NCBI RefSeq assembly: GCF_900110125.1
Contig: NZ_FOCN01000010.1
Location: forward strand, 1 to 64,000
Direction: 5' to 3'
From: Cryobacterium luteum
GTDB taxonomy: Bacteria > Actinomycetota > Actinomycetes > Actinomycetales > Microbacteriaceae
DNA length: 64,000 bases
Shown here: piece by piece, positions 489 through 62,987 of the stretch
Layout: each line of letters starts with the position of its first letter
Position numbering within the stretch: position 1 is the stretch's first letter
Made by a program: the position numbers and the translations under genes
The notes under the pieces: generated by a model
Told to the model about the DNA's origin: nothing
Database searches by the model: none
Seen by the model: the letters and a program-made list of their open reading frames with translations, nothing else

Positions 489-1811
489 ATGTCCACAATC
501 TTCGATCGGGTTGACGCCCGCCTGGCGACAGCGCTCACCCCGAGCCGCCGTCTCACCCTGCAACGCCCGCGCACCCTGGCGCTCGGCTTCCTCGTCCTGC
601 ACACGGTTTTCCTGCTCGCACTCCTCCCCACCATCCTCACCGGCCGCGTGCTTGGAGACCTTCCGCTCTACCGCACCTGGGCCGAGCTCGGCTTCAGCAA
701 CGGCGTCTGGCAGGGAATCGATACCGCCTGGGTCTACCCGATCGGCGCCATTCTCCCAATCGCCTTCGCGAGCGTCGCTGGTCCGCTGCTGTATCAACTG
801 CTGTGGTTCCTGATGACGACCGTGCTCAACGCGGTTGCCGTCGGGGCGCTCACCGACTGGGGGCGCCGCCGCAGCGGGTTCAAGTCTGCCTGGTACTGGC
901 TGCTCGCATCGTTCCTGCTCAGCCCGGTGGGCCTGCTGCGCCTCGAAGGGATAACGGCCCCCCTCGTCATCGTCGGCCTCGTGCTGCTCGCCCGGCGTCC
1001 GCTGGTAGCCGCGGTCCTGCTCACTCTCGCCACCTGGATCAAGGTCTGGCCGGCCGCGGTCATTCTCGCCGTGGTCACGGTGTCACCCCGACGACGCACG
1101 GTACTGCTCACCGGGGCCGCGCTGTCCGCCGGAGTGGCAGCATCCGTTTGGCTGCTGGGCGGACTGCGCTATCTCACCGGCTTCATCACGGAACAAACCG
1201 ACCGTGCCCTGCAGCTCGAGGCGCCCATCACCACCCCGTGGGTATGGCTGGCCACCCTGGGTCGCCCCGACACGGTCATCTACGAGAACTATTCCATCGC
1301 CACGCGTGAGGTGTCGGGCCCGGGCACCGATCTGGTTGCCTCGCTGATGACGCCGGTCATGTTCGCGGCCATCGCGGCTATTTTTGTGCTGTTACTCATC
1401 GCCACACTGCGGCGAGCGGATGCCGCCCAGCTCGTTCTGCTTGGTTCCCTCGCCCTGGTCAGCGCGTTCGTCGTCTTCAACAAGGTCGGGTCACCGCAGT
1501 ACATGCTGTGGCTGGTGCCGGTGGTCGCCGTCGGTGTCGGGCGCAGCTGGATGCTGTGGCGGGTTCCGGCCGTGCTCATGCTGGCCATAGCCGGCCTGAC
1601 CACGCTGGTCTTCCCCATCTTCTACCTGCCGCTCATCGCCGGCGACCCGTTTTCGCTCCTGCTGCTCACCGTGCGCAACGTGCTCCTCGTCATGCTGTTG
1701 AGCTGGTCGGTCAGGGAAGTCGCTCGATTGGCCTGGGCTGCGCCGAAGCACGAGGTGGAATCCGCGGCACGCCGCCCACTCCCAGTCGGCCAAGGCAGAA
1801 TAGACGGGTGA
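489..1811 (+). CDS. GT87/DUF2029-like polytopic mannosyltransferase
   Basis: This 440-residue integral membrane protein has roughly ten hydrophobic segments starting near residue 30, and an acidic or aromatic first loop (LPLYRTWAELGF, about residues 58-69). That layout is typical of GT-C glycosyltransferases of the GT87/DUF2029 group, which use polyprenyl-phosphate mannose at the outer face of the membrane in actinobacteria. The acceptor cannot be told from sequence. The stop overlaps the start of the next gene in a GTGA, so the two are probably translationally coupled. Confidence in 'membrane glycosyltransferase' is good; the exact reaction is inferred. Confidence 0.7.
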   Translation: MSTIFDRVDARLATALTPSRRLTLQRPRTLALGFLVLHTVFLLALLPTILTGRVLGDLPLYRTWAELGFSNGVWQGIDTAWVYPIGAILPIAFASVAGPLLYQLLWFLMTTVLNAVAVGALTDWGRRRSGFKSAWYWLLASFLLSPVGLLRLEGITAPLVIVGLVLLARRPLVAAVLLTLATWIKVWPAAVILAVVTVSPRRRTVLLTGAALSAGVAASVWLLGGLRYLTGFITEQTDRALQLEAPITTPWVWLATLGRPDTVIYENYSIATREVSGPGTDLVASLMTPVMFAAIAAIFVLLLIATLRRADAAQLVLLGSLALVSAFVVFNKVGSPQYMLWLVPVVAVGVGRSWMLWRVPAVLMLAIAGLTTLVFPIFYLPLIAGDPFSLLLLTVRNVLLVMLLSWSVREVARLAWAAPKHEVESAARRPLPVGQGRIDG

Positions 1812-2401
1812 CCACGACGACGACCTTCGCCCTCATCCGCCACGGCCAAACCGATTGGAATGCCGCCCTGCGCATCCAGGGTGCCACCGATATCCCGCTC
1901 AACGACGTGGGACGTGGCCAGGCAGCGGATGCCGTCGTTCCCCTCCAGCGCTACGGCTGGGATTTCATCGTTTCGTCGCCGCTGTCTCGGGCCGCCGAAA
2001 CTGCTGACCTGATCGGCGAACAGCTCGGCCTCGACATCGCCCGGCGCATTCCGGGCCTGATCGAGCGCAACTACGGGCCGGCCGAGGGTCTCAGCGCCGG
2101 ACCGGAGCTTGATGCCCTGCGATTTCCCGGTGGATTCCACGGCGCCGAGACCGAAGAGGCTGTCGCGGAGCGCGGGGTCGATGCGCTGCACCAGCTGGCC
2201 GAACGCCATCCCGGTGCGCGCATCATCGTCGTTGCCCACGGCACCCTCATACGGCTGAGCCTTGAGCACGCCCTCGACCAGCGCATTGGCAGCATCAGCA
2301 ATGCCACGCTCAACCTCGTGCACCATCACCACGTGGCCGCCGACGACGCGACACAGTGGCAGCTCGACGTGTTGAACGGCGAGCAGCTCGTCGGTGCCTG
2401 A
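1808..2401 (+). CDS. Histidine phosphatase family protein (phosphoglycerate mutase-like)
   Basis: This 197-residue branch-1 histidine phosphatase has the catalytic RHG at residues 11-13 (His12 is the phosphate acceptor), the arginine in SSPLSRA near 61, the acidic ERNYG near 87, and the second histidine in VVAHG near 144. The GTG start overlaps the upstream TGA (GTGA). A longer open frame exists upstream but runs through the glycosyltransferase gene, so it is not used. Such enzymes dephosphorylate metabolites such as sugar or nucleotide phosphates. Two-residue motifs do not reveal the substrate. Coupling to a glycosyltransferase could hint at a cell-envelope role. Confidence 0.85.
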   Translation: MTTTTTFALIRHGQTDWNAALRIQGATDIPLNDVGRGQAADAVVPLQRYGWDFIVSSPLSRAAETADLIGEQLGLDIARRIPGLIERNYGPAEGLSAGPELDALRFPGGFHGAETEEAVAERGVDALHQLAERHPGARIIVVAHGTLIRLSLEHALDQRIGSISNATLNLVHHHHVAADDATQWQLDVLNGEQLVGA

Positions 2402-2415
2402 CCCGCGCCAACGAG

Positions 2416-4094: not shown

Positions 4095-4096
4095 GA

Positions 4097-5098: not shown

Positions 5099-5708
5099 CG
5101 CTCGGTACCTGAACGACGACCTTGGCCGCGCGCAGCAGCGTGGAACCGAGGTAATACCCCGTCTCCGCGACATCGCCGACGGTTTCGGTGTCGACGGCCG
5201 CACTCGGCTGCTGGAAGATCGCCTCGTGCATGGTCGGGTCAAAGGGGTCGCCGACCGTGCCGAATGACGTCAGGCCCAGGCGCTCAACACTTGCCCGCAG
5301 CTTGGCCGCGATCGTGGCGAAAGCAGAGTCGGGTACGAGGTCGCCGTGCTTCTCAGCACGGTAGATGTCATCGAGTACCGGAATAAGCACCTTGACGATA
5401 TCCCCGGTCACGCGCTCTTTTTCGATGGCGCGGTTGGCTTCGGTACGCCGACGGTAGTTGGCGTACTCGGCCGTCACACGCTTGAGGTCGGCGAGGTGTT
5501 CGCTCGTCGGCTCCGCCACTTCACGCTCTGCCGCGTCCAGAATGTCCTGAACGGTCAGTTCGTCTTCTTCGATCCCGTCGGCCGAAGCCGCGGCTTCTTC
5601 GTCACCAGCGGATGCGGCATCGGGCGCTGCTTCCGAGGGAACGCCCGCGCCGGTGCCGTCATCGGGCACCCCCGCAGCGTCCTTGCCTGGATGTTTCTTG
5701 TCAGCCAT
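5091..5708 (-). CDS. grpE: Nucleotide exchange factor GrpE
   Basis: The 205-residue GrpE releases ADP from DnaK. The first ~80 residues are acidic and Ala-rich, as in other actinobacterial GrpE. A long charged helix follows (about 80-130), then the beta-wing core ending ... AKVVVQVPSDG. The conserved region with DPTMHEAI is seen near residues 153-160. It begins 9 bp after the dnaK stop and overlaps dnaJ by 8 bp, which indicates a tight operon under the two HAIR operators. Confidence 0.95.
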   Translation of the reverse strand: MADKKHPGKDAAGVPDDGTGAGVPSEAAPDAASAGDEEAAASADGIEEDELTVQDILDAAEREVAEPTSEHLADLKRVTAEYANYRRRTEANRAIEKERVTGDIVKVLIPVLDDIYRAEKHGDLVPDSAFATIAAKLRASVERLGLTSFGTVGDPFDPTMHEAIFQQPSAAVDTETVGDVAETGYYLGSTLLRAAKVVVQVPSDG

Positions 5709-5717: not shown

Positions 5718-7592
<1,875 letters not shown>

Positions 7593-7731: not shown

Positions 7732-7807
7732 TTTCAACGCACCCACTGAGACACAAGCGGATGCCGCGGGCCGGCAAATCCGGATGTTTACCCCGGAGCA
7801 GTAGATT

Positions 7808-10036: not shown

Positions 10037-10090
10037 CACACCGAGGCCATCAGCATCCGTTTCTCAGCGGATGCGGGTGGCCTCGGTGTG
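10037..10090. terminator. Nested bidirectional hairpin between convergent genes
   Basis: CACACCGAGGCC (10037-10048) pairs perfectly with GGCCTCGGTGTG (10079-10090). Inside it, GCATCCG pairs with CGGATGC around an eight-base loop. The structure lies between two converging genes and overlaps the last codons of the minus-strand one. No long T run follows on either side, so a terminator role is likely but not certain. Confidence 0.55.
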
Positions 10091-10585
10091 TTCAATGAGT
10101 TGCCAGGTTGTGCCCTCGTCGGCTGAGACCCAGCCCTCCCACTTGTAGCTGTCCGGAGTGATGGCCGTGAAGTTCCAGCGGATCGGGCGACCGTCGGTGC
10201 GCGTGCCCTCCTGCCGCACGCCGTGGCGGTACGGGGTCGCAATGAGTTGGCAGTATTCGCCGAGTACCGGCGCGAAGTAGCTGACCCGCCAGGCGCCGGC
10301 GAACGGGTCGTAGACGCGCACGGTGGTGGCGACGGTTTCAAATCCCGACGGATGCGTCGTGCTCGCGACGACCTCGATGTCTTGCACCGCCCGACCGTCG
10401 AGGATGAATTCGACCATCCAGACGAAATCGCGTTCGATCCATTCGCCCGTGGTCTCATCGAGCCGAGTGCCTTTCGCGGCCCAGGAGCCGACCATCTGGC
10501 CGAAGCGGTGCATGCGCCCCGGGTAGGCCGGCGTGGGACCGTGCGCGATGAGCGCCTCGTCGAATCGGGTGGGCATGGAGGTCAT
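10064..10585 (-). CDS. DUF1579-like calycin-type hypothetical protein
   Basis: The 173-residue soluble protein is rich in Trp and aromatic strands (GSWAAKGTRLDETTGEW, near 33-49; KWEGWVSADEGTTWQ, near 149-163). It alternates strands as in small ligand-binding beta barrels (DUF1579/calycin-like). No catalytic motif is visible. A second ATG three codons in is an equally good start. The last codons overlap the hairpin shared with the upstream convergent gene. Function is unknown. Confidence 0.7.
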   Translation of the reverse strand: MTSMPTRFDEALIAHGPTPAYPGRMHRFGQMVGSWAAKGTRLDETTGEWIERDFVWMVEFILDGRAVQDIEVVASTTHPSGFETVATTVRVYDPFAGAWRVSYFAPVLGEYCQLIATPYRHGVRQEGTRTDGRPIRWNFTAITPDSYKWEGWVSADEGTTWQLIEHTEATRIR

Positions 10586-10675
10586 ACCCAGATTTTACCC
10601 GACGGAAGGTTACCTTCGATGTACTGCGTTTGCTCGGCTTGCCGGCATCCGCTATACCCGGTGAAGGTGCGCGGG

Positions 10676-13802: not shown

Positions 13803-14324
13803 TTAGTCAGCGCCCACGTCGTGCCGATGGTGCACGATGTCGTGCAGAAAGTACGCGCCGAAAGTCGCCACGGTGAACGACGGCCCGTCGCTGCGGCGGG
13901 CGGTGCGCTGGCGGGCATCCGCTGGTACGGCGGCGAAACTCTCGGCCACGCTTGAAGCGGCTGCCACGAGCTCGCGTCCCACGGTCTGCGGATCCTGTAA
14001 GTCGTACCGCTCCGCGATCGCCGTGGCGTCCTGGTCCCAGTTCGCCAGCAACGGGTCGTCGTCGTCGAGGATGAGGCGCAGGCGCTCGTCGAACAGGCGA
14101 CAGACATCACGCACGTGAGCCGCGTATTCGAGGGCTGACCAGGTGTGATCGTTCGGACGCACCGCAGCATCCGTTTGCGTCAGCACGCCCGGCCAGGTTG
14201 CGGCGTTCGCGCGGATCAGGCGCGGCAGGCTCTCGAAGTCCACCTCGTTCGCCCGAAATCCACAGGCGGGGCAGGGGCGTTCGAGCACCCAGGTCCAGTC
14301 AGACGTGTCAGGAATAATTGGCAT
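13803..14324 (-). CDS. DinB-like / mycothiol-dependent-type four-helix protein
   Basis: The 173-residue protein has the helical DinB layout. An N-terminal CPACGF (about 18-23) precedes a helix with HTWSALEYAAHVRDV (about 60-74), where the histidine in AAHV would be the first metal ligand. A C-terminal HDIVHHRHDV supplies the rest. Actinobacterial members include mycothiol S-transferases; this assignment rests on fold-level similarity. The Cys pair at the start is unusual and could bind zinc. An in-frame GTG at 14396 would add 24 atypical residues, so I choose the ATG. Confidence 0.75.
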   Translation of the reverse strand: MPIIPDTSDWTWVLERPCPACGFRANEVDFESLPRLIRANAATWPGVLTQTDAAVRPNDHTWSALEYAAHVRDVCRLFDERLRLILDDDDPLLANWDQDATAIAERYDLQDPQTVGRELVAAASSVAESFAAVPADARQRTARRSDGPSFTVATFGAYFLHDIVHHRHDVGAD

Positions 14325-14444: not shown

Positions 14445-15710
14445 TTAGCGTTTGCTGATCTTCCAGATGCCGTCAGCGAGCGCCTTGTCGGGGTGCTGCA
14501 CGCTCAGGAAGAGCTCCTTCGGGTTCTTTCCAAAGTAGATGCCGGTCGTCTCGGCGCCCTGATCCGTCAGCGAAGCGAAGAGCTCAACGTTGATGGAGTT
14601 GCCGACCGTATTGGCGCGCGTGCTGGCCCGGTAGACATCGCTGAAGCTGTTGTCTTCGACGATCCACAGGGCGCCATCGGGGCCCTCCGCCAGGTTGTCG
14701 GGGTTGTTGAATCCCGTGATTCCGGCGGCCTGGTTCTCGACCGGCACGTTGACCCCAGCCTGCACGAAGGTGCTGAGCATGCTCTTTTTCAAATCGATGG
14801 CGATGACGCGGTCTTCCGAGGTGTTGGCCACGTAGAGCGTGTGGTCGATGATCTCGACGTCTTCGGGGCGACCGAATTCGGTCGCGACGACCGCGTTCGA
14901 CGCGACGTCGGCATCCATTTCGACCTGGTTCTGATCGAGGGCCACCCAACTGAAGGCCCCGACCTTGTTCGCGAAGGTGCCCGCGTTCCAGAGCTGGTCG
15001 GCATTGGCCAGCCCGGTCAGCTTGAGCGCGTAGAGCTGGCCCGCCGCGAGGTTGCCCTTCTGGGTGGGTACGAACTTGTAGATCGAGCCACCGTTGAGCT
15101 CGTCGATGACGTAGACGTTGCCGTCTTTGTCTACGTCGATGCCTTCGTGGCGCAACACGCCGAGCGCGATTCGCTCTTCGATCTTGACGACCTTGGTGAG
15201 GTCCTTCTTATCGAAGAACAGCTCGTAGACCTTGCCGCCCGCCGTCTCTTCGGTGATCAGCAGGCTGCCCCACGGCGTCCAGCGGATGCCATCCAGCCGA
15301 TTCCAGTCGGCCCGTTGGGCGATGACCGAGGTTGTCCCGGTCTTCAAATCGGTGACAGCCACAGCGCCGTTCGCGCCAACCTCGTAGGTGTTGTATAGGT
15401 AGCGTCCGGCTTCGCGGCCGGTCTCATTCTGAGTATTCATGTCGTGCAGGTCATCGACGCCGGGGTAAACGTCGAGCACGGTCTCGTCTTTCACCAGGGT
15501 CTGCGTGAAACCGGCCGGAACCAGGTACGGCACGGTCCAGTCGCTGCTGGCCTGGCCGTAGGCGGATGCGGCGAGGGGCTCGAAGGCGAACGGGCCCTGA
15601 GCGTGGTCGCCGGGACCCGCCGTAGGGCCGGCCGGATCTGCGTGGGCGGCACTGCCGAGGCTGAGCAGCAGGGAGACGAATACAGCGCCAGTTGCAATCT
15701 TCTTGATCAT
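14445..15710 (-). CDS. Secreted PhoX/DUF839-like beta-propeller protein
   Basis: The 421-residue protein has a clear Sec signal peptide (about 1-24, cleavage after AHA). The body is a repeated-strand propeller with RLDGIRWTPWGSLLITEET (about 138-156), RHEGIDVDKDGNVYVIDE (about 187-204) and FNNPDNLAEGPDGALWIVED (about 329-348). These loops recur in PhoX-type and DUF839 proteins, where they help bind calcium. Phosphatase activity is plausible but not shown. With the ice-binding protein it makes two exported proteins in one accessory block. Confidence 0.75.
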   Translation of the reverse strand: MIKKIATGAVFVSLLLSLGSAAHADPAGPTAGPGDHAQGPFAFEPLAASAYGQASSDWTVPYLVPAGFTQTLVKDETVLDVYPGVDDLHDMNTQNETGREAGRYLYNTYEVGANGAVAVTDLKTGTTSVIAQRADWNRLDGIRWTPWGSLLITEETAGGKVYELFFDKKDLTKVVKIEERIALGVLRHEGIDVDKDGNVYVIDELNGGSIYKFVPTQKGNLAAGQLYALKLTGLANADQLWNAGTFANKVGAFSWVALDQNQVEMDADVASNAVVATEFGRPEDVEIIDHTLYVANTSEDRVIAIDLKKSMLSTFVQAGVNVPVENQAAGITGFNNPDNLAEGPDGALWIVEDNSFSDVYRASTRANTVGNSINVELFASLTDQGAETTGIYFGKNPKELFLSVQHPDKALADGIWKISKR

Positions 15711-15864: not shown

Positions 15865-16761
15865 ATGACGGTACTCATTGCCGGATGCGGCGACCTCGGC
15901 ACCGAGGTGGGGCTGCGATTCGCGCGCCTGGGGCACCCTGTGGTCGGGCTGCGCCGCAACGCGAGTGTGCTCCCGCCAGAGATCTGCGGCCAAGCCGTTG
16001 ACCTCAGCGTGACGAAGCCCGTCATCCCGCTCGACACCGACTTCGTCGTCATCGCCATCTCCGCCGGCAGCCCCACCATCGACGCCTATCGCGCCGCATA
16101 CCTCGACGGCCTGCGCAACCTGCTCGACGCCCTCGCCTCTCACGACGAGACCAGCGCCGCCGTCACACCCCGCCGCGTGCTGCTGGTGTCGTCCACGGCT
16201 GTCTATGACGTCAACGACGGCAGCCGGGTTGACGAGCAAACCCCTGCGAATCCCAGGCCGGGCACCGATTCCATCGTGCTTGAAGCCGAGCGGATGCTGC
16301 ACCAGCGTCTCCCCGCCGCCACCGTGCTGCGCCTGGCCGGCGTCTACGGACCCGGCCGGGAACGCCTGATCCAGCAGGTGCGAGACGGCGCCCAGCTCTC
16401 CACCCAGTCACGCCACACCAACCGCATACACCGGGACGACGCAGCCGCCGCGATTGTTCACCTGCTGCTGCGCCCGGAACAGCCCGCACCGCTCTATCTG
16501 GGTGTCGACAATGCCCCGGTGCCGGCCAACGAGGTCCTGACCTTTCTCGCCGCCGAGCTCGGCCTGCCTGAGCCAACCCTCAAGCCTGAGGCGACGCCGC
16601 AGCCGACGCCGAGCAAGCCAGCATCGCGCGAAAGCCAGCGCGGCGGTGACAAACTCCTCAGCAACCAGCTCCTGCTGCGGACCGGATTCACCTTCAGCTA
16701 CCCGAGCTATCGCGAGGGCTACCGGGCTCTACTGGCCGGAGTCGGAACCCGCCACCCCTAA
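15865..16761 (+). CDS. NAD(P)-dependent epimerase/SDR protein (YeeZ-like)
   Basis: This 298-residue extended short-chain dehydrogenase starts with the dinucleotide motif VLIAGCGDLGTEVG (residues 3-16). RVLLVSSTAVY (about 108-118) and a downstream VYGPGR complete the core, but the usual YxxxK is not obvious. That is typical of atypical SDR5/YeeZ-like members. AAGGAG lies just before the start, and a GTG one codon earlier is a possible alternative. The substrate is unknown. The gene seems monocistronic. Confidence 0.8.
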   Translation: MTVLIAGCGDLGTEVGLRFARLGHPVVGLRRNASVLPPEICGQAVDLSVTKPVIPLDTDFVVIAISAGSPTIDAYRAAYLDGLRNLLDALASHDETSAAVTPRRVLLVSSTAVYDVNDGSRVDEQTPANPRPGTDSIVLEAERMLHQRLPAATVLRLAGVYGPGRERLIQQVRDGAQLSTQSRHTNRIHRDDAAAAIVHLLLRPEQPAPLYLGVDNAPVPANEVLTFLAAELGLPEPTLKPEATPQPTPSKPASRESQRGGDKLLSNQLLLRTGFTFSYPSYREGYRALLAGVGTRHP

Positions 16762-47579: not shown

Positions 47580-49898
47580 ATGGTGGCCGATTCAGATTCC
47601 GCGCATCGGCCCGCGCTCTCGGCTGCCGCGTGCAGTGCCGTGCGCCCGGCCCGGCGCCGTCAGAAGCGACGAATCAGGCGACCGTTCACGGCCGTCCTGG
47701 TCGGATTTCTCACCCTCGCGTCGTTGATTTTTGCGCCGACTCCATCCCTCCGACCGGCCAGCGCGCAAACCGAGATGGGCACCGCTTCGAGCGCCACCAC
47801 CCCCGCCGATACGGTCGGCATCACCGTTTCTCCGCGCGATTCGTCCGAGCTTTCGCCCGGCCAGGACCTGCTGCTGACGGTGGCCGTGCACAACAACACC
47901 GACGCCGACATTCCCGTCGGCCGAGTCGATGTCTACCTGGCGGATCTGGCCCTCACCACCCGCGCTGCGCTCGACAGTTGGCTGCGACCCTCCGCTGACA
48001 CGAATTCCGGCGACCAGCTCGTGAGCGTGCCCACGGCGGGAATCATTCCAGCCGGTGCCGGCACGACCGTCAGTGTCACGGTGCCGGCGGAATCCGTCGG
48101 ATTGACCGATCAGAACGCGTGGGGAGCTCGGGGAATCGCCGCGATTCTCAGCGCGGATGATGTGGTTCGGGCAGAAGGCCGCGGCACGTTCGTGTGGTCG
48201 CAGGGCAGCGCGATCACCCCGGTGGCACTCACAACCATTCTGCCGATCACGACTCCGGCCAACGCGACCGGCCTGATCACCGCCAAGGCGCTCGAGTCGT
48301 ACACGAGCTCGGTCGGTCTGCTCTCCCGCCAATTGGATGCCGCGATCGACGCGCCGACGGCAACGATCGCGATCGATCCGCAGATCATCGCGTCTATTCG
48401 GGTGCTCGGCACAGCAGCTCCCGCGTCGGCGCTCGCCTGGCTCGATCGCCTGGCCGGCGCGAGCAATGACATCTTTCCGCTCAGCTACGCGGATGCCGAC
48501 ATCGCGGTGCAAGCGCAGGCGGGCGCCCCGACACTGCTCGCGCCGACATCCTTCGACCCGGCCATCGATGCGAGTCTATTCGTGGTCCCCCCGAGTACAC
48601 CGGCCCCCGAGATAACCACTGATCCGACCGATGTGCCCAGTGTGACGTCGCGCACGAAGGCCCAGACCAGCCCGTCACCGACGCCGTCACCCACGCCCAC
48701 GGTGGAGCCGGGCCAGACGGTCATTCCGAGCACGAGCGACCTGCTGGCCTGGAACTACACGAGCACCGCCATCGGCTGGCCGGCCGCCGGTCAGGTCGCC
48801 CGCAGCGACCTGGACGTGTTCGCCGCGAGCGGCCTGACCACCACCATCCTCTCGAGCGGCAACGTGGAGCAATCAGACGTCTTCACGCCGAATACCGCGG
48901 TCACCCTTCCGACCGGGCTGGGCCTGGTCAGTGACAGCCCGCTCTCTGCGGCCATCCGTGCCGCCGCCGAAGCCACCACCGACGAGGAATGGCGGGTGAA
49001 TGTCACCGAGGCGGCTTCGCTCCTGGCGATCGTCTCGGCGGAGAATCCCGATTCGGCGCGCACCCTGCTGGTCACCTTCGACCGCAGCAGTCCTGCGACC
49101 GCGACCAGAATCGGCCAAACGCTCACGGCCCTCGACGGCGCCGCCTGGTCGACGGCGGCGTCACTACAGTCGGCCCTGGCCGCCACCCCGGCCACCACGG
49201 TGACCTTTCAGGCTGAAGCCATCGACGGCAGCCGGGTCACGCTCGCCCGATCATTGCTGGAGCGCGAAGGTGCCCTCGCCGAATTCGCGACGATCCTGGC
49301 CGATCCGGTAGCCATCACGGCCCCGGCCCGCCTGGACCTGCTGGCTCTGCTGGACACGACCTGGACGGCCCAGGCGTCGGTCTGGGAAGACCAGGTTCGA
49401 GCGAGCCTCGCCGCTTCCTTCGACCTGATGCACGCCGTGACCGTGACCACCCGCGGGCCCATCATCGTGGTGGGGAGCAAGGTCGACCTGCGCATCACGC
49501 TCAACAACGCCCTCGACCAGGCTGTCACCGTGCGCACCGAGATCGTACCGTCCAACGGACGCCTCGTCGTCGGTGAGACCCTCGAGACCATTATTCAACC
49601 GAACTCGGCACAGGCCGTCTCCGTGCCGCTCAGCGCCGCCGTCGGCAACGGCGACGTCGTCCTGCGGGTCACCCTGTTCACCCTGAACGGCACCCCGCTC
49701 GGCCAACCGGCCCCCATCGATGTCAGCGTGCGCGCCGACTGGGAGGGAGTCGGCGCGACCATCTTCGCGATCCTCGTCATCGGCTTCTTCGGATTCGGCA
49801 TCTGGCGCAATATCGTTGGTCGACGCCGGGAACGCGCCGCTGAGGCATCCGCTGCTGCAGTTGAACCGGCGATACCGGCGGCGGAACCCGATGTCTGA
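47580..49898 (+). CDS. DUF6049 family exported membrane protein
   Basis: The 772-residue protein has a basic start and a membrane helix or signal (about 37-58). A very long extracytoplasmic part with Ala/Thr/Ser strands (including a Pro/Thr linker near 350-375) follows, then a C-terminal membrane helix (about 727-747). This DUF6049 architecture sits between pcnA and murJ in many actinobacteria and suggests an envelope role with MurJ, but function is unknown. It overlaps murJ by 8 bp. Confidence 0.85.
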   Translation: MVADSDSAHRPALSAAACSAVRPARRRQKRRIRRPFTAVLVGFLTLASLIFAPTPSLRPASAQTEMGTASSATTPADTVGITVSPRDSSELSPGQDLLLTVAVHNNTDADIPVGRVDVYLADLALTTRAALDSWLRPSADTNSGDQLVSVPTAGIIPAGAGTTVSVTVPAESVGLTDQNAWGARGIAAILSADDVVRAEGRGTFVWSQGSAITPVALTTILPITTPANATGLITAKALESYTSSVGLLSRQLDAAIDAPTATIAIDPQIIASIRVLGTAAPASALAWLDRLAGASNDIFPLSYADADIAVQAQAGAPTLLAPTSFDPAIDASLFVVPPSTPAPEITTDPTDVPSVTSRTKAQTSPSPTPSPTPTVEPGQTVIPSTSDLLAWNYTSTAIGWPAAGQVARSDLDVFAASGLTTTILSSGNVEQSDVFTPNTAVTLPTGLGLVSDSPLSAAIRAAAEATTDEEWRVNVTEAASLLAIVSAENPDSARTLLVTFDRSSPATATRIGQTLTALDGAAWSTAASLQSALAATPATTVTFQAEAIDGSRVTLARSLLEREGALAEFATILADPVAITAPARLDLLALLDTTWTAQASVWEDQVRASLAASFDLMHAVTVTTRGPIIVVGSKVDLRITLNNALDQAVTVRTEIVPSNGRLVVGETLETIIQPNSAQAVSVPLSAAVGNGDVVLRVTLFTLNGTPLGQPAPIDVSVRADWEGVGATIFAILVIGFFGFGIWRNIVGRRRERAAEASAAAVEPAIPAAEPDV

Positions 49899-54513: not shown

Positions 54514-55470
54514 ATGAGCGAATTCACCGCACTGAAAATTGTCATTCTCGCTGGCGGAATCTCACACGAACGCGACGTTTCGTTGCGCTCCGGGCGCCGA
54601 GTAGCGGATGCCCTCGGTGACGCGGGCCACTCCGTCACCGTACTGGACCCCGGATCCAACCTGCTCACCACCCTCAGCCAGCAGGCTCCCGATCTGGTCT
54701 GGCCTACCCTGCACGGCGCTACCGGCGAGGATGGCGCGCTGCTGTCGCTGCTCGAAACTACCGGTATTCCCTTTCTCGGATCGCGCGGCCCCGCGGCCGC
54801 CCTGGCCTGGAACAAGGCCACCGCCAAGGAGCTCGTGCTGCGGGCCGGTATCGACACTCCCCCGGCCATTGCACTGTCCACCGAGACCTTTCGAGACCTC
54901 GGCGCCACGAGCGTGCTCGAGCACTTGATCAGCGCGATCGGCCTGCCCCTCGTCGTCAAGCCCGCCCAGGGCGGATCTTCCCAGGGTGTCACCATCGTGC
55001 GCACGCCCGCCGACCTGCCGCGCGCCATGGTAGACGCCTACACCTACGCCAATACCGCCCTCGTTGAGGCCTACATCGAAGGCACCGAGGTCACCGTGGC
55101 CATTATCGACACCGGCGACGGCCCCACAGCCCTTCCCATTGTAGAAATTGTTCCCGTAGACGGCGTCTACAGCTTCGAAGCGCGCTACAACGCCGGCGAA
55201 ACCGACTTCTACACGCCAGCCCGCCTTGCTGACGAGGTCGCAGGGGCCGTTTCTGAGGCCGCTATCGCCATTCACGTGCTTCTCGGACTGCGCCACCTAA
55301 GCCGCATCGACCTCATCGTCGACGCGGCCGGCACCCCCTGGTTCCTCGAGGCCAACGTGCTCCCCGGCCTCACCGAGACCTCCCTGGTGCCCCAGGCTAT
55401 CGAAGCCGCCGGTCAGACCCTCGGCGCGACCTATTCGGCCCTCGCCACCCACGCCCGCACTGACCGGTAG
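54514..55470 (+). CDS. ddl: D-alanine--D-alanine ligase
   Basis: The 318-residue ATP-grasp ligase joins D-Ala for peptidoglycan. It has VILAGGISHERDVSLRSG (about 11-28), the substrate loop LPLVVKPAQGGSSQGV (about 144-159), EGTEVTVAI (~190-198), and the metal site FLEANVLPGLTETSLVP. AGGAAAA precedes the ATG. Slightly shorter than the usual 330-370. Confidence 0.95.
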   Translation: MSEFTALKIVILAGGISHERDVSLRSGRRVADALGDAGHSVTVLDPGSNLLTTLSQQAPDLVWPTLHGATGEDGALLSLLETTGIPFLGSRGPAAALAWNKATAKELVLRAGIDTPPAIALSTETFRDLGATSVLEHLISAIGLPLVVKPAQGGSSQGVTIVRTPADLPRAMVDAYTYANTALVEAYIEGTEVTVAIIDTGDGPTALPIVEIVPVDGVYSFEARYNAGETDFYTPARLADEVAGAVSEAAIAIHVLLGLRHLSRIDLIVDAAGTPWFLEANVLPGLTETSLVPQAIEAAGQTLGATYSALATHARTDR

Positions 55471-55897: not shown

Positions 55898-56848
55898 CTA
55901 GCTCGCGCTGAAGCCTGGTTCTCCGAGTACGGTCAGAATGCGATTGAGATCTCCGATGGTAGCGAAATCCACTGTGATCTGGCCTTTTCGTGCGCCCAGG
56001 TTGATTTTCACGCGCGTATCGAGACGGTCACCCAGGTGTTCGGCGATCTCATCGAGGTGTCCCTGGCGGCGCCCGGGAAGCGGTTTAGCCTTGACGAGTT
56101 TCGGAACGGCCGTCGCTGCAGCCTCCGCTGCGCGCACGGACAGGTCTTCCTCGACGATCTTGTCGGCCAGGCGCAGCATGCCGGCCAGGTCACCCACCGA
56201 TAGAATTGCTCGCGCGTGGCCAGCCGACAGCACGCCGGCGGCGACTCGAATTTGTACCGGCTCCGGCAGCTTCAGCAGGCGCAGCGTGTTGGTGATCTGA
56301 GGGCGCGAACGACCGATTCGGGTCGCCAGTTCTTCCTGGGTAATACCGAAATCAGCGAGCAGCTGCTGGTACGCAGACGCCTCTTCGAGCGGGTTCAACT
56401 GGGCGCGGTGAAGGTTCTCCAGCAGGGCATCGCGCAGCATGTCGACGTCGGCCGTTTCGCGCACGACCGCCGGAATACTGTCGAGCCCAACCTCCTTGGT
56501 GGCCCTTAGACGACGTTCACCCATGACGAGCTCGTATTTGCCCGGCTCATCAGACAGGGGACGCACGACGATCGGCTGCAGCACCCCGACCTCGCGAATG
56601 CTGTGCACCAGTTCGGCGAGGTCATCTTCGTCGAAAATCGTGCGCGGCTGGGCCCGGTTCGGCACGATGTTTTGCGGGTTTAGGTGAGCCAGGCGAGCCC
56701 CGGGTACGGGAATCAGCTCGGGGGAGGCATCCGCTGCAGTCGCCACACCGCGGGGAAAGAAGACGTCAACCGGGCGGGGAGCTGAAGCATCATCCTGTAC
56801 CGGAATAAGTGCACCGATGCCGCGGCCCAGACCAGTTCGTTTCGCCAT
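55898..56848 (-). CDS. parB: Chromosome partition protein ParB
   Basis: The 316-residue CTP-dependent clamp loads at parS. It has VMGERRLRAT (108-117, CTPase/ParB box II), the QPIVVRPL box (~91-98), and a helix-turn-helix TQEELATRIGRSRPQITNTLRLL (split near 165-187). A C-terminal dimer domain follows. The N-terminus MAKRTGLGRGIGALI is the usual ParA-contact peptide. The ATG overlaps the parA stop by one base. Five parS cores are nearby. Confidence 0.98.
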   Translation of the reverse strand: MAKRTGLGRGIGALIPVQDDASAPRPVDVFFPRGVATAADASPELIPVPGARLAHLNPQNIVPNRAQPRTIFDEDDLAELVHSIREVGVLQPIVVRPLSDEPGKYELVMGERRLRATKEVGLDSIPAVVRETADVDMLRDALLENLHRAQLNPLEEASAYQQLLADFGITQEELATRIGRSRPQITNTLRLLKLPEPVQIRVAAGVLSAGHARAILSVGDLAGMLRLADKIVEEDLSVRAAEAAATAVPKLVKAKPLPGRRQGHLDEIAEHLGDRLDTRVKINLGARKGQITVDFATIGDLNRILTVLGEPGFSAS

Positions 56849-57819
56849 TATTGCTTTTCTCCTAATTGGGACTTTTCTCCTCTTTCGGCCGGTTCTCCCG
56901 TTCCGGGAGCCCCACGATGGGCCATTTCTGCTGCTGCTTCGAGGTAGGAGAGCGATCCTGCGGAGTTGAGGTCGTAACTGACGACGCTCTGCCCGTAGCT
57001 CGGGGCCTCAGAAACGCGCACAGATCGCGGAATTGCGGTGTTCAGCACTTCTTTGGGGAAGTGATCGCGTACTTCCTGGGCTACCTGGGTCGCCAAATTG
57101 GTGCGGCTGTCATACATGGTGAGCAGAATTGTCGATACGACCAGGTCGGGGTTGAGGTGTTTCTCGATCAGGGCGATGTTCTTGAGCAGCTGGCTCAGAC
57201 CCTCAAGCGCGTAATACTCGCACTGAATCGGAATGAGAACCTCACGTGCCGCGACGAAGGCATTGATGGTGAGCAGCCCTAACGATGGCGGGCAGTCGAT
57301 GAAGACGTAGTCGTAGGGCTCAGCCATCTCAACCAGATAGAGGTCAAGGGCCCGGCGCAGGCGCTGCTCACGGGCGACGAGCGATACCAGTTCAATCTCT
57401 GCTCCGGCAAGGTGAATGGTGGCGGGCACACAGTACAGGGCACCGAATTCCGGGCTCTTCTGCACGACCTCAGACATTGGCATGTCGTTGATAATGACGT
57501 CGTAGACGCTCGGCGTCTCGGCGCGGTGTTCCACACCGAGAGCGGTTGAAGCGTTGCCCTGCGGGTCCAGGTCGATGACCAGCACGCGAGCTCCCTGCCG
57601 CGCAAGAGCGGCTGCGAGGTTGACGGCCGTCGTGGTTTTACCTACGCCACCCTTCTGGTTGGAGATCGTAAGCACCCGGGTCTTCTCGGGTTTGGGCAAC
57701 TCGCCTGCCGCGATGACCTGGCGGCGGCGCGTGAGTTCAGCTATCTCGCGGGCGAGCGGCGTTGTACCGTCAAACCCGGCCGCCTTGCCCGTGCGCTGAT
57801 TTTCAGCAGGATGTTTCAC
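56848..57819 (-). CDS. parA: Chromosome partition ATPase ParA
   Basis: The 323-residue deviant Walker ATPase has KGGVGKTTT (56-64), FIDCPPSLGLLT for the B motif, and DLDPQGNAST (about 80-89). A ~45-residue N-terminal extension precedes the core. The start is the GTG at 57819, which lies in the middle of parS site 5, with AAAGG 6 bp upstream as the ribosome site. No other start with a good site is seen nearby. It moves ParB-bound origins. Confidence 0.97.
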   Translation of the reverse strand: MKHPAENQRTGKAAGFDGTTPLAREIAELTRRRQVIAAGELPKPEKTRVLTISNQKGGVGKTTTAVNLAAALARQGARVLVIDLDPQGNASTALGVEHRAETPSVYDVIINDMPMSEVVQKSPEFGALYCVPATIHLAGAEIELVSLVAREQRLRRALDLYLVEMAEPYDYVFIDCPPSLGLLTINAFVAAREVLIPIQCEYYALEGLSQLLKNIALIEKHLNPDLVVSTILLTMYDSRTNLATQVAQEVRDHFPKEVLNTAIPRSVRVSEAPSYGQSVVSYDLNSAGSLSYLEAAAEMAHRGAPGTGEPAERGEKSQLGEKQ

Positions 57820-57895: not shown

Positions 57896-58636
57896 CTAGT
57901 CCACTGTAGCTCGGATGACCCGGGTTACCTCGGGCAGCACGCCAGCACCGAGGGTGATGACCTCGACATCACGCAGCCGATACTTGCGAACGGGCTTTGC
58001 TGCGGCGTCGATTTCACGCTGGGCTCCCTCGCCCTTCATGAGAATAAGCTCACCGCCGGTGCGCAACAACGGCGCCGTCAAGGGAATGAGCTTGCTGAAC
58101 GCACTGACAGCGCGAGCCGTGACCTGGTCGAGCGGATGCGCCAGCCGCGCGTCTTCCGCACGCGCCCGCACCACCGACACATTCGCCAGCTGCAACGAGG
58201 CAACCTGATCATTCAGCCAGGCCACCCGACGTTCCATCGGTTCGATCAGCACGAAATTAACGTCTGGCCGCGCTATGGCCAGCACCAGTCCGGGCAAGCC
58301 GGCTCCGGAACCCACGTCACCGACGAAGCCCGGTCGCAAGAGTGGTGCCACGATGGCGCAGTTGAGAATGTGACGAGACCAGAGCCGGGGGAGCTCCAGC
58401 GGCCCAATCAGACCCAGGATTTCGCCCTGATCAGCTAAATTGTTGGTAAAAGCACGAATGGCATCAATTTGGGACCCGAAAAGTTCAGCCGCTGCGGCCG
58501 GTTCGATCTCCAGAACCGCCGGCTCCACAGAACCTGAGTCAGAGACATCCCGGGCGGACTCGACTGGTTCTGCGCTCGCGGGCACAGGCGTGTTTCCGGC
58601 GAAACGAGTTACTTCCGGCGTGGCAGATTCCGACAT
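57896..58636 (-). CDS. rsmG: 16S rRNA m7G527 methyltransferase
   Basis: The 246-residue enzyme has the SAM site GDVGSGAGLPGLVLA (106-120), and RLWSRHILNCA (about 84-94) in the helical part. Residues 1-40 are a non-conserved acidic extension, so a downstream start is possible. Loss causes low-level streptomycin resistance in other bacteria. It is between khpB and parA. Confidence 0.95.
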   Translation of the reverse strand: MSESATPEVTRFAGNTPVPASAEPVESARDVSDSGSVEPAVLEIEPAAAAELFGSQIDAIRAFTNNLADQGEILGLIGPLELPRLWSRHILNCAIVAPLLRPGFVGDVGSGAGLPGLVLAIARPDVNFVLIEPMERRVAWLNDQVASLQLANVSVVRARAEDARLAHPLDQVTARAVSAFSKLIPLTAPLLRTGGELILMKGEGAQREIDAAAKPVRKYRLRDVEVITLGAGVLPEVTRVIRATVD

Positions 58637-58647
58637 GACCAGCGAGG

Positions 58648-59265
58648 CTACGCTGCGGTGATGACGGTATGGCGGTCGCGACCCTCACCGGAGGACTCGG
58701 ACCGATAGCCGCCGCTCTCGGCGACAATGTCATGCACGAGCTTGCGCTCGTACGAAGACATGGCGGGAAGGTCAGCCTCGCTCGCGCCAGCCACGATCCG
58801 CTCAATGGCACGCGCTACGAGCGTGCCAAGCTCAGCTTCACGCACCTCGCGAGACCCACCGATATCAAGAATCAGGCGGGAGAACGAGCCCGTTTTGTTC
58901 TGCACCGCCAGCCGCGTCAGTTCCTGCAGGGCATTGACCGTTTCCGGCTTGGAGAGCACCCGCAGGTTGTCGGCATCGGACGCCTTGACCGAGAGGTAGG
59001 CACGGCCGTTACGGGCATCGATGTCGATATCGCCATCCAGGTCGCAAATGTCGAGAAATTCTTCGATGTAGTCGGCAGCGATGTCGCCTTCACGCTCGAG
59101 CTGGTCGGTTGTCAGGGGTACCTCAGCGACGCTGCCCGTCTCGGGAACCGCGGGGGAGGCATCCGTCGTGGCGGGGGCAGTGGGAACTGCACTGGCAGCC
59201 GAGACGCTCGTGGTCTCGATGCTGACCTCGGTGAGGCCGGTCTTGTCCGTCACGGTGATCTCCAC
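58648..59265 (-). CDS. khpB: RNA-binding protein KhpB/Jag (KH-R3H)
   Basis: The 205-residue protein has an acidic Ala/Thr/Pro first part (~1-55), a KH-like domain (~65-125) and a C-terminal R3H domain with SSYERKLVHDIVAE near 170-183. KhpB acts with KhpA on RNAs affecting cell division and envelope. GTG start overlaps the yidC stop by one base (TAGTG). Confidence 0.95.
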   Translation of the reverse strand: MEITVTDKTGLTEVSIETTSVSAASAVPTAPATTDASPAVPETGSVAEVPLTTDQLEREGDIAADYIEEFLDICDLDGDIDIDARNGRAYLSVKASDADNLRVLSKPETVNALQELTRLAVQNKTGSFSRLILDIGGSREVREAELGTLVARAIERIVAGASEADLPAMSSYERKLVHDIVAESGGYRSESSGEGRDRHTVITAA

Positions 59266-60248
59266 TACTTTTTCGGGCCGGTTTGCTTCTTGGCGCGTGC
59301 TTTGCCCACCGGCTGCTGGCGCTGCACAGGCTTGGCAGGCTCCTCAACGACAATGATGTCACCATCGGTCGCGATGAGCTTGCCCTTGCGGGCCATACGC
59401 TCTTCGCGCGCCTTGGCGGCCTCACTGCCCGGGGTCGGCATGTTTCGGATCACCAGGAACTGCTGAATCATGGTCCAGAAGTTGGAGGTGAGCCAGTAGA
59501 ACATGACGCCGAGCGGGAATGCCACTCCGGAGAAGGCGAAGACGAGGGGGAGCAGGTAGAGCATGATGCGCTGCTGCTTGAACATGGGGCTCGCCTTGGT
59601 CTCCGGTGACATGTTCTTGGAGACGATCTGCAGCTGCGTGATGAACTGCGACGCCGTCATCAGCACGACCATGGTGGCGGCGATGATCATGACGGTCACG
59701 TTGAAGGGTTCACCCGCGGTCCAGAGCGACCACTGCGAGGCAAAGGTATCGTGCAAGGGTGCATTACCGAACAGCGTGGCACTACCGAAGCTCTCGGCGA
59801 GGCTCTGATTGAGCGGGCCGACACCACGGGTGGAGCGCTGGGCGTCGTTCAGTACCGAGAACAGGGCGAAGAAGATCGGCATCTGCAACAGCAGCGGCAG
59901 GCAGGAACTCAGCGGGTTGGTACCCGTCTTCTTGTACATGGCCATGGTCTCGCGGCTCATGGCCTCGCGTGAGAACTGGTCCTTCTTGCCCTTGTACTTG
60001 TCCTGGATCTTCTTGAGCTGGGGGGCGACCTCAAGCATCTTGCGCTGGCTCTTGATCTGCCGCACGAAGATGGGAATGAGGGCCGCGCGCACAACCAGGA
60101 CGAGGCCGACGATGGACAGCACCCAGGTGAGACCGTCGTCGTAGCCGAGTCCCGCGAATCCGATCTGGGAAAAGAGCCAGTGGAAGGCTACGAGGAGCAG
60201 CTCGACCACCCATTTCAGAGGCCAGAGGATCGTACCTATGAGGTCCAT
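59265..60248 (-). CDS. yidC: Membrane insertase YidC
   Basis: The 327-residue Oxa1-type insertase has five helices, with VRAALIPIFVRQIKSQRKM carrying the substrate-groove Arg, the coiled-coil hairpin (about 75-115) and LFSVLNDAQRSTRG in the third region. The C-terminus is basic (ARAKKQTGPKK) as expected for ribosome binding. Inserts membrane proteins alone or with SecYEG. Confidence 0.97.
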   Translation of the reverse strand: MDLIGTILWPLKWVVELLLVAFHWLFSQIGFAGLGYDDGLTWVLSIVGLVLVVRAALIPIFVRQIKSQRKMLEVAPQLKKIQDKYKGKKDQFSREAMSRETMAMYKKTGTNPLSSCLPLLLQMPIFFALFSVLNDAQRSTRGVGPLNQSLAESFGSATLFGNAPLHDTFASQWSLWTAGEPFNVTVMIIAATMVVLMTASQFITQLQIVSKNMSPETKASPMFKQQRIMLYLLPLVFAFSGVAFPLGVMFYWLTSNFWTMIQQFLVIRNMPTPGSEAAKAREERMARKGKLIATDGDIIVVEEPAKPVQRQQPVGKARAKKQTGPKK

Positions 60249-60256
60249 ACTGTGGG

Positions 60257-60942: not shown

Positions 60943-60964
60943 GAGAACCTGGCGACCACGAGAC

Positions 60965-61102
60965 CTACGCGGAGAGTTCGGTGCGGCCCTTGCGACGGCG
61001 AGCACCGAGGATGGCGCGGCCTGCACGGGTACGCATGCGCAAACGGAAGCCGTGCACCTTGGCGCGACGACGGTTGTTCGGCTGGAAGGTTCTCTTGCTC
61101 AT
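60965..61102 (-). CDS. rpmH: 50S ribosomal protein L34
   Basis: The 45-residue L34 reads [20 protein letters not shown] at its start and ends GRTELSA. It is the first gene of rpmH-rnpA-yidD-yidC-khpB-rsmG, divergent from dnaA across the rpmH-dnaA part of oriC. Confidence 0.98.
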
Positions 61103-61568
61103 AGTTCAATCTCCACGTATTTGAATCACCGCTGGCCAAATTCCCCTCGGCCAGAACAGCAGCGCGCACAGAAGTTGGAAGCCCGCGGGATGGGGTCAAC
61201 TGATTAAAACTACGGCCTTGGGGACTCCTGGTCAAACTCAGGCCCCGAATCATCGGAATCTCCACAATAATGACTCCAACGTACATACCAAACAGGCCAG
61301 GCGACGTCACGGGTGAATTCGCCACACTGACCGGGATTGACTACCGTAAAGACAAGTTATCCACAGGTTGGAGGCCTCAACCTGAGAATTGGGTCGGTTT
61401 TATACACAAGCGGTGGATAACTTAAACGATGAGCTCGAAGCATGCTCGGAAACACCCATCGTCCGGCCTACGTAACCGTAGCGGGAACCACGTGCAACAC
61501 CGGCCCCGCGCAACACGCTCGCCCGCGGCCCGATCGTACAAACCCGAAATACACAGATTGTAGGAACA
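61103..61568. other. rpmH-dnaA intergenic region with DnaA boxes
   Basis: No gene is seen. DnaA-box matches are at 61358-61366 (TTATCCACA, perfect), 61400-61408 (TTATACACA, perfect to TTATNCACA) and 61412-61420 (one mismatch). They lie 140-210 bp upstream of the dnaA start, where they can repress dnaA and form part of the origin. Confidence 0.85.
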
Positions 61569-62987
61569 ATGGCAGATGTTGAAGCGCCGATAGCCGAGAC
61601 ATGGCGGTCCGTTCTGACCACCTTGGAATCCGACGCCACCATCACGCCCATGCTCTACGGCTTTCTCAGCCTGGTCGAGCCGAAAGGCATCGCCGCCGGT
61701 ACCTTCTATCTCGAGGTGCCCAACGAATTCACGGCCAGCATGCTCAACCAGCGCATGCGAGTTCCCCTGCTCACCGCGATGGGGCAGCTCGATGAAGCCA
61801 CCGCAGTCTCGACGTTCTATGTGGTCGTCAACCCCGAACTCGAGCAGGAATCACTGCGTCCGGTGCAGCAGACGCTGACTCCGCCCGACGTCGTTACGCC
61901 GGCCCCGCCACAATCGGTGTTCGAAGGTGTCGTTCCGGCGCAACCGCATGAGACCAGGCTCAACCCTAAGTACAGTTTCGATAACTTCGTCATCGGCCAG
62001 TCGAACCGGTTTGCGCATGCCGCCGCCGTCGCGGTGGCAGAGGCGCCGGCCAAGGCCTATAATCCACTCTTCATCTACGGATCCTCGGGCCTCGGTAAGA
62101 CTCACCTCCTGCACGCCATCGGGCATTACGCCATGAGTCTGTATCCAGGCATCCGAGTGCGGTATGTCAGTTCCGAGGAATTCACCAACGATTTCATCAA
62201 TTCCATTGCGAACAACCGTGGCGCGGCGTTCCAGTCGCGCTATCGCAACATCGACATCCTGATGATCGACGACATCCAATTTCTACAGAACAAGGCGGAA
62301 ACCCAGGAAGCTTTCTTCCACACCTTCAACACCCTGCACGACCACAACAAGCAGGTGGTCATTACGAGCGACCTGCCGCCCAAGCATCTCACCGGCTTCG
62401 AAGACCGCATGCGCAGTCGTTTCGAGTGGGGCCTGATCACGGATGTCCAGGCTCCCGACCTCGAGACCCGCATCGCCATTCTTCGTAAGAAGGCCCAGAG
62501 CGAAAAGCTGCAGGTTCCACATGACATCCTCGAATTCATGGCGTCCAAGGTCTCCTCGAACATTCGAGAACTGGAGGGTACTCTCATCCGGGTGACCGCC
62601 TTCGCGAGCCTTAATCGAACTCCGGTCGACATGGATCTGGTGCAAACAGTCTTGAAAGACCTCATCACCCTCGACGAAGACAACGTGATCGCGCCGGTGG
62701 ACATCATCACGAACACGGCCAACTACTTCAAGCTTTCGGTCGACGATCTGTACGGCTCCAGCCGGTCCCAAGCGATTGCTACGGCTCGACAAATCGCGAT
62801 GTACCTGTGCCGTGAACTCACGAATCTGTCGCTGCCCAAGATTGGACAGCTCTTCGGCAACCGTGATCACACTACGGTCATGTACGCGAACAAGAAGATC
62901 AGTGAGCTCATGAAAGAGCGTCGGTCTATCTATAACCAGGTGACTGAGCTGACCAACCGGATCAAGCAGGACCACCGCTACAAGTAG
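61569..62987 (+). CDS. dnaA: Chromosomal replication initiator DnaA
   Basis: The 472-residue AAA+ protein has domain I (about 1-90), a short Pro/Gln-rich domain II (~95-130), and an ATPase with Walker A GSSGLGKTH (171-179) and Walker B IDDIQF (233-238). The C-terminal HTH has the box RDHTTVMYANKKI (432-444). Domain II is short. It opens the origin at DnaA boxes on both sides of this gene. Confidence 0.99.
   Translation: MADVEAPIAETWRSVLTTLESDATITPMLYGFLSLVEPKGIAAGTFYLEVPNEFTASMLNQRMRVPLLTAMGQLDEATAVSTFYVVVNPELEQESLRPVQQTLTPPDVVTPAPPQSVFEGVVPAQPHETRLNPKYSFDNFVIGQSNRFAHAAAVAVAEAPAKAYNPLFIYGSSGLGKTHLLHAIGHYAMSLYPGIRVRYVSSEEFTNDFINSIANNRGAAFQSRYRNIDILMIDDIQFLQNKAETQEAFFHTFNTLHDHNKQVVITSDLPPKHLTGFEDRMRSRFEWGLITDVQAPDLETRIAILRKKAQSEKLQVPHDILEFMASKVSSNIRELEGTLIRVTAFASLNRTPVDMDLVQTVLKDLITLDEDNVIAPVDIITNTANYFKLSVDDLYGSSRSQAIATARQIAMYLCRELTNLSLPKIGQLFGNRDHTTVMYANKKISELMKERRSIYNQVTELTNRIKQDHRYK

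Follow-up and report, generated by a model that had tools for sequence, protein, structure and literature searches.

The question raised by this locus is why one heptamer, CGGATGC, and its complement GCATCCG recur throughout a 64,000-nucleotide stretch of the Cryobacterium luteum genome (the window, meaning the whole stretch that was analysed), and what function keeps them there. A word scan located 67 copies on both strands between positions 1140 and 62155 (39 on the plus and 28 on the minus strand, the last beginning at 62149), while 13.9 were expected from base composition; this excess was stronger than an earlier note had claimed (about 60 copies versus about 14), and its statement that both strands carry the word was borne out. 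Markov models of orders 1 to 5 gave expectations of 20, 15, 15, 23 and 46 copies for the window, the order-5 figure being conditioned on hexamers that are themselves enriched. By our own gene calls, 11 of the 67 core sites were not wholly inside a gene; of the seven intergenic places that had been named, six match such sites to within a few bases; the seventh, near 10069, falls in a predicted gene (10064–10585). The form AGCGGATGC was present 27 times in the window (19 plus, 8 minus), among others on the plus strand at 1415–1423, 1924–1932, 2731–2739, 5607–5615, 15281–15289, 16289–16297, 19135–19143, 54603–54611 and 58131–58139, on the minus strand at 5833–5841, 13915–13923, 43968–43976 and 49845–49853, and between genes at 7756–7764 (plus), 10645–10653, 16859–16867 and 56727–56735 (all minus).

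Counts were extended to the window and 20 further stretches of its genome, 355,090 bases in all, in which AGCGGATGC was the top 9-mer, with 124 copies versus 4.9 (order 3) or 25.2 (order 5) expected; the order-3 enrichment was about 25-fold, and 22-fold in the relative G037. In the whole genome 1460 copies of AGCGGATGC were counted versus 145 of a reversed-word control, and 3492 of CGGATGC versus 743 of its reverse. Chance or base composition was ruled out as the cause of the excess by the window counts and the Markov enrichment. The word is enriched over the Markov expectation, and its copies are not confined to a single codon frame; neither of the two outcomes that would have contradicted the earlier note (a count as expected, copies in one frame only) was seen. 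The base preference spans about nine positions with graded flanks, and the degenerate form can be written A[GA]CGGATGC, often with C next; a strong genome-wide excess of one 9–12-mer, as is characteristic of DNA uptake sequences (DUS), was found for AGCGGATGC.

For coding copies of AGCGGATGC, the observed number of 94 was compared with that left after synonymous-codon shuffling, which was 8.3 ± 2.7. Copies occupied all six phases on both strands, so that more than one coding frame is used, as had been claimed, but not only the two proposed. The two commonest phases encode Ala-Asp-Ala and Ala-Ser-Ala, as a by-product of codon or peptide preference (or of base composition) would predict; that explanation is refuted by the shuffle and is left with practically no probability, since the word also lies in every phase and between genes, its third codon positions are conserved and its order-3 enrichment is 25-fold, and confinement to a single frame is refuted by the use of six. 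Within AGCGGATGC, third codon positions of same-dialect species had an identity of 0.930 versus 0.600 for matched background. Most copies are in genes, the intergenic share (19% versus 16% for the control) being barely raised. That selection or drive targets the DNA word and not the codons, as the earlier note had argued for selection, is supported by the shuffle, the six phases, the third positions, the Markov counts and the relatives alike.

Conservation was then read from pairs of genomes (20 congeners were fetched; G003, G040 and G037 were left out), which were classed as A-dialect if rich in AGCGGATGC and B-dialect if rich in GACGGATGC. Between A-dialect genomes AGCGGATGC was identical in 510 of 763 cases (0.318 for permuted words), from A- towards B-dialect genomes in 35 of 473 (0.104 for permuted words), and from A-dialect genomes to G007 in 10 of 53 (0.156). 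Residual AGCGGATGC copies in B genomes were kept above control (B to B, 36 of 75 versus 0.233; B to A, 35 of 124 versus 0.096), and the B word was mildly conserved between B genomes (18 of 49 versus 0.233, with few copies in the compared region). Identity was not elevated around copies: it was 0.851 over the nearest 50 bases and 0.87 to 0.90 at distances above 200. In the window, copies identical in aligned A-dialect relatives were found on the plus strand at 20691–20699 (7 of 8 relatives), 22996–23004 (8 of 8), 24929–24937 (6 of 7), 29807–29815 (3 of 9), 31335–31343 (6 of 9), 31434–31442 (9 of 9), 34217–34225 (2 of 9) and 37020–37028 (8 of 9), and on the minus strand at 22419–22427 (5 of 8).

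Its relatives mark the genome as that of a Cryobacterium (Microbacteriaceae). Cryobacterium species differ in the flanks of the word, one sister pair (G003 and G040) being rich in both AGCGGATGC and GACGGATGC. The dialects largely track the tree, as do DUS dialects around an invariant core, although here the core varies between genera; G007, which has neither word, was placed among B-rich species. Over 41 genomes the A and B counts were negatively correlated, without reaching significance (rho −0.27, p 0.09). Conservation in related Microbacteriaceae, a check that had been proposed for the word, took the form of enrichment with dialects: of 11 Microbacteriaceae from three genera, 10 showed CGGATGC in 3.7- to 8.5-fold excess over the reversed word, the core excess in sampled members of the family greatly surpassed what other families of the order show, further word forms occurred in several other genera, and a few genera were without the core. 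It was altered or missing in g5, g33, g46 and one g76 species; the variant GGAGGC was found in G072, and a palindromic core, GGATCC, in G044 and, weaker, in G182 (one genome each from two genera), the word being asymmetric in most genomes sampled. No clear word was seen in the small genomes G049, G053, G099 and G064, for which the sample (20 kb each) is too small. A weak excess of CGGATGC was found in ComEC-neighbourhood loci, a sample biased by conserved genes (Leifsonia 87 versus 49.7, Agreia 35 versus 18.6). G045 tends to GCGGATC; in G104 a poly-C run outscored the word, and in G048 three 9-mers of one repeat family did so. The best explanation, which taken jointly with a function as uptake label has about an even chance of being right, is that a non-palindromic DNA recognition word is widespread in Microbacteriaceae, and that AGCGGATGC is the form of it which serves as dialect in this Cryobacterium and its closest relatives.

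Other functions were weighed against the same data. A methylation-linked word of the HIP1 kind, in which an orphan methyltransferase would modify the core, methyl-biased repair would create and keep copies and dialects would follow methylase turnover, fits the DNA-level constraint equally well, and for the cyanobacterial HIP1 a huge over-representation, alternates in certain genomes and a link to methyltransferases are likewise described (PMC4390886). Whereas HIP1 is palindromic, AGCGGATGC is not, and GGATCC cores, which would suit this reading, were confined in the sampled genomes to G044 and G182; methylase sites do not usually resemble this mostly asymmetric word with its some nine positions and graded flanks. 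Moreover, HIP1 as modelled requires methyl-directed mismatch repair, which Actinomycetota are generally held to lack, and we regard this reading as rather unlikely. Slightly less credit is given to a nucleoid or chromosome-organising protein as the one that would bind the word; such a protein would need many dispersed, non-polar sites, and the dialects would follow its evolution. The word is genome-wide, lies on both strands and is kept by constraint, and an IS-rich 20-kb stretch (L106) carries no AGCGGATGC, as is likewise the case for a housekeeping stretch (L109). Against such a protein, spacing is random rather than even (gap CV 1.03, with 13 of 86 10-kb chunks empty), most copies are in genes, and dialect turnover within one genus would presumably be unusual for an essential protein.

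Lower still we place a Chi-like recombination signal for an AddAB- or AdnAB-type helicase-nuclease, which is improbable even though the word is non-palindromic, species-variable and frequent, and AGCGGATGC contains AGCGG, the Chi sequence of B. subtilis. Co-orientation with replication, typical of Chi, was not found in the chromosomes of G037 (66 leading, 74 lagging) and G083 (232 leading, 257 lagging), nor was the strong ori-to-ter polarity typical of KOPS/SRS (FtsK/SpoIIIE); in the oriC-proximal window the lagging strand had 19 copies and the leading strand 8 (p=0.05). The strand-bias check suggested earlier was thereby run, a replication-polar signal was rejected for lack of strand bias in the two chromosomes, and recombination or segregation signals of this kind (Chi, KOPS) are not supported. 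Chi of the RecBCD type was rejected because none of 28 genomes gave a match to RecC (PF04257), whereas the E. coli control did.

Among the functions that the earlier note offered, uptake fits best, and AGCGGATGC most likely labels DNA for uptake in natural transformation, a reading that we hold with about as much belief as doubt. A surface or pilus-associated protein would favour DNA bearing the word, the imported strand would pass through ComEA/ComEC to recombination, biased import would seed and repair copies across the genome and so maintain them, and a change of receptor would bring a change of dialect. On the broader proposal we stay just short of an even call: Microbacteriaceae may possess a complete, undescribed uptake-specificity system with fast-evolving dialects, outside the two proteobacterial families, which would probably be read by a Flp/Tad-type pilus or a ComEA-linked receptor and would act as a mating barrier among Cryobacterium and relatives. 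Counting against uptake are the absence of an intergenic preference, a weak TadE association and, in the C. luteum genome (G000), an interrupted comEC adjoining a recombinase gene. DUS are expected to be rare in recently acquired DNA; the empty IS-rich stretch L106 would match this, but the housekeeping stretch L109 is just as empty. ComEC was found in 158 and ComEA in 159 of 159 family genomes (109 over the cut-off for ComEA), and TadE in 137; competence machinery, as expected with DUS, is therefore present, yet the presence of ComEC and ComEA discriminates nothing because both are near-universal in the family, genomes that lack the GGATGC core included, and E. coli is matched by the ComEC model as well. 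With AGCGGATGC taken as proxy for the word, the word ratio was lower in TadE-less genomes (p=6e-4 with genomes as units and 0.011 with genera, kinship ignored), although 30 TadE-positive genomes were low and 3 of 22 TadE-less genomes were more than 2-fold enriched.

The Pasteurellaceae competence pilus is of another kind. Uptake sequences are defined by the preferential uptake of DNA that carries them and come with a cognate receptor (ComP, ComN or an equivalent). In the literature covered they are described from Neisseriaceae and Pasteurellaceae; none was found for Actinomycetota in the open-access literature searched, matches listed for the literal word AGCGGATGC looked unrelated by title and abstract, and phage searches returned integrase relatives, with no Microbacteriaceae phage among the matches listed. 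The Pasteurellaceae uptake signal sequence (USS) resembles AGCGGATGC as a 9-bp over-represented word (PMC1626085) with two subtypes within the family (PMC3630211), but is unrelated in sequence and phylum. Closer is the Neisseriaceae DUS (receptor ComP), a non-palindromic word of about 10 bp with hundreds to thousands of copies in and between genes, whose dialects share a short common core and follow phylogeny, one species carrying two of them at almost the same abundance (PMC3630211), and which shows no orientation bias (PMC1939737); it differs in phylum and sequence, and in Microbacteriaceae even the core is altered in a few genera. Micrococcus luteus offers an actinobacterial case of competence with comEA, comEC and Flp/Tad pili, for which the available part of the source mentions no uptake sequence (PMC6370729). 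If the uptake reading is true, uptake sequences would have arisen independently in an actinobacterial family, and a genus that contains both single- and dual-dialect species would offer a tractable case for molecular drive, receptor–word co-evolution and bacterial sexual isolation, the origin and change of uptake labels being still debated; laboratory transformation of these organisms would also be helped. Whatever the function, a 9-mer that is so strongly enriched, maintained and variable between species makes one expect a protein dedicated to reading it.

Inverted pairs, a further usual though not defining trait of DUS, described in Neisseriaceae (PMC3630211), were found here at about two-fold excess for the core but not for the full 9-mer. 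Close inverted core pairs (7–60 bp apart) numbered 33 versus 16.6 expected, with 7 tandem pairs, while permuted control heptamers leaned the opposite way; pairs of the full 9-mer within 60 bp numbered 6 versus 5.4 expected (4 inverted, 2 tandem), without clear excess. Terminator hairpins were rejected as the main role, since only these 33 close inverted pairs occur among 734 core copies. In the window, inverted pairs lie at 10053–10074 (GCATCCG-N8-CGGATGC, the right member being AGCGGATGC at 10066–10074) and, as core only, at 30031–30048 (CGGATGC-N4-GCATCCG).

The heptamer CGGATGC and its complement GCATCCG were counted 67 times in the window (39 copies on the forward and 28 on the reverse strand) against an expectation of 13.9 from base composition and of 15 to 23 from Markov models of orders 2 to 4, which bore out the earlier note's estimate of about sixty copies where about fourteen were expected. 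In the 67 aligned copies the base at −2 of this core was A in 40, the base at −1 was G or A in 55, and C followed directly in 34, and the unit was therefore taken as A[GA]CGGATGC plus a less strongly favoured trailing C. In 355,090 bases sampled from the window's genome (the window and 20 further stretches), AGCGGATGC was the top over-represented 9-mer (124 copies against 4.9 expected, order 3). Among its 27 single-base neighbours AACGGATGC was the outlier (55 against 3.0), the other 26 occurring at 0 to 7 times expectation (e.g. AGTGGATGC, 14 against 2.0). Across the whole genome (3.83 Mb in 73 contigs) AGCGGATGC was found 1460 times and the reversed word 145 times.

In this genome 94 copies of AGCGGATGC lay in a set of 263 predicted genes, and 8.3 ± 2.7 copies (maximum 16) were obtained when synonymous codons were shuffled within the same genes over 100 rounds; a codon effect was thus rejected as the source of the word. 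In 844 kb from three genomes rich in AGCGGATGC (A dialect), the 281 copies used all six phases (sense 80, 28 and 3; antisense 59, 24 and 31), with 53 lying between genes and 3 on gene edges, so the word is not tied to a codon frame, in keeping with the earlier note. The between-gene share was 19% for the word and 16% for permuted words, rough figures with a gene caller that spans 80% of the DNA. When A-dialect genomes were compared, third-position identity within the word was 0.930 against 0.600 in a base-matched background (0.714 unmatched), and this excess is the strongest single sign of maintenance of the DNA word itself. First and second positions were at background level (0.939 against 0.945 and 0.968 against 0.956), and between genes word identity was 0.922 against 0.862. 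The shuffle and the third positions together uphold selection or drive on the DNA word and not on codons.

Conservation was measured in the stretch matching 20-40 kb of the window from 20 congeners. Ten A-dialect genomes (86% identical) kept the word unchanged in 510 of their 763 aligned cells, the rate for permuted words being 31.8%; from these to seven genomes rich in GACGGATGC (B dialect) it was identical in 35 of 473 cells, under the 10.4% control, and the core was kept at 31% against 22%. Aligned cells are non-independent units; averaged per site, the mean was 0.72 at the nine window sites and 0.27 at 157 control sites (p=1.5e-4). The B word was sparse in this region (14 copies in the seven B genomes) and, when B genomes were compared, identical in 18 of 49 cells against a 23.3% control, which makes the converse test weak. 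Maintenance of the word is lineage-specific. No rise of identity was seen in its flanks in the A-dialect comparison of these stretches. Identity was 0.85 to 0.865 within about 200 bp of AGCGGATGC sites (stretches L200-L219) and 0.87 to 0.90 further out, so copies tend toward weakly constrained DNA.

In a scan around ComEC the closest named relatives were Cryobacterium species, which points to this genus for the window's genome. Both words were counted in 41 genomes of the genus (AGCGGATGC/GACGGATGC). A-rich species included the window's own (1460/288) and G017 (1486/326), B-rich species included G012 (201/722) and G025 (209/755), two species were rich in both (1321/1416 and 1254/1377), and others in neither (e.g. 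G004, 351/375). In a tree of 21 of these genomes the two dual-dialect species were sisters, A-rich species clustered together, and B-rich species clustered with G007 (288/267, neither) among them; G036 and G037 were placed with weak support (0.31 and 0.37).

In other genera (samples of 44 to 500 kb; words are composites of overlapping top words) the forms were GAGCGGATGCGC in G104, AGCGGATGC with GGATGCCG in G048, GCGGATGCG[TG] in G083, CCGGATGCG in G109, ACGGATGCC in G149, [CA]AGGATCCG in G044 and AGGAGGCGCGG in G072. The top word also varied inside one genus, being CGGATGCCG in G133 (L223-L225) and the weaker, palindrome-bearing CGGATCC in G182 (L220-L222; 79 against 34). Repeat families GGTTGAGGAG (G048, L025-L029) and GAGGAGCCTGG (G085, L095-L096) resemble longer REP-type repeats and are separate from the 9-mer. 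A survey of the order covered 149 genomes, 11 from three genera of Microbacteriaceae and 138 from 16 other families. The ratio of CGGATGC to its reversed word was 3.7 to 8.5 in 10 of the 11 (the eleventh, G182, gave 1.9), and about 0.5 to 2.7 in the 138, with the exception of G307 (3.5).

Copies in G083 were evenly oriented (251 forward, 255 reverse; heterogeneity p=0.56), and no replication polarity of the word was found on the chromosomes of G083 (232 leading, 257 lagging; origin set by dnaA) and G037 (AGCGGATGC, 66 leading, 74 lagging; origin set by synteny). In the window, whose origin region carries parA-like (56848-57819), yidC-like (59265-60248) and dnaA (61569-62987) genes, 8 leading and 19 lagging copies lay left of oriC (p=0.05). 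Gaps between copies were random (CV 1.03), and 10-kb chunks were over-dispersed (variance/mean 1.85; 13 of 86 empty). Two 20-kb stretches of G037 held no 9-mer copy, one an IS-rich sugar-utilisation segment and the other a housekeeping block that encodes a sigma factor and subunits of type II topoisomerase. Close pairs of the 9-mer were at expectation (6 up to 60 bp apart, 5.4 predicted); for the core, spacings of 7 to 60 bp gave 33 inverted and 7 tandem pairs against 16.6 of each expected (inverted excess p=2.6e-4), and 419 permuted heptamers gave 871 inverted and 1294 tandem close pairs.

The asymmetric, actively maintained word, its non-polarity, the inverted excess of core pairs (not shared by pairs of the 9-mer), and dialects that largely follow phylogeny with a dual-dialect pair match the description of Neisseriaceae DUS dialects in PMC3630211, and features of the word fit uptake sequences generally as described in PMC1939737 and PMC2346458. 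Natural competence is described for the actinobacterium Micrococcus luteus, through comEA, comEC and Flp/Tad pili (PMC6370729). On these likenesses, uptake specificity in natural transformation is the favoured function, at what we judge to be even odds, in part because the core changes among genera. The main rival would be a methylation-linked origin of the word, which is suggested by comparison with HIP1 as covered in PMC4390886. Among the matches listed from titles and abstracts of open-access journal papers, neither an uptake sequence from Actinomycetota nor AGCGGATGC as a genome signal was found.

As regards uptake machinery, ComEC was found in 158 of 159 family genomes, ComEA in all 159 (109 above the curated cut-off) and TadE in 137 (136 above cut-off); a search for RecC in 28 genomes found none. 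With kinship ignored, TadE-less genomes had a lower AGCGGATGC/reversed ratio, both counted singly (22 against 134, p=6e-4) and grouped by genus (13 against 62, p=0.011), though exceptions were numerous. The comEC gene of the window's genome is broken in two near codon 290, where conservation is high: residues 3-292 lie on contig C72 and residues 290-816 on contig C52 (interrupted region at L227:2842-3654 and L081:735-3949, in that order). A large serine recombinase of 514 aa, akin to phage integrases, adjoins the break. Should the word serve uptake, this loss of comEC must be recent or reversible. A different recombinase adjoins comEC at residue 283 in G002, another Cryobacterium (L228:4130-6999), and the gene may have been a target of integration more than once, an event that would switch off uptake. 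The gene also showed an apparent 5' truncation in G006 and G025.
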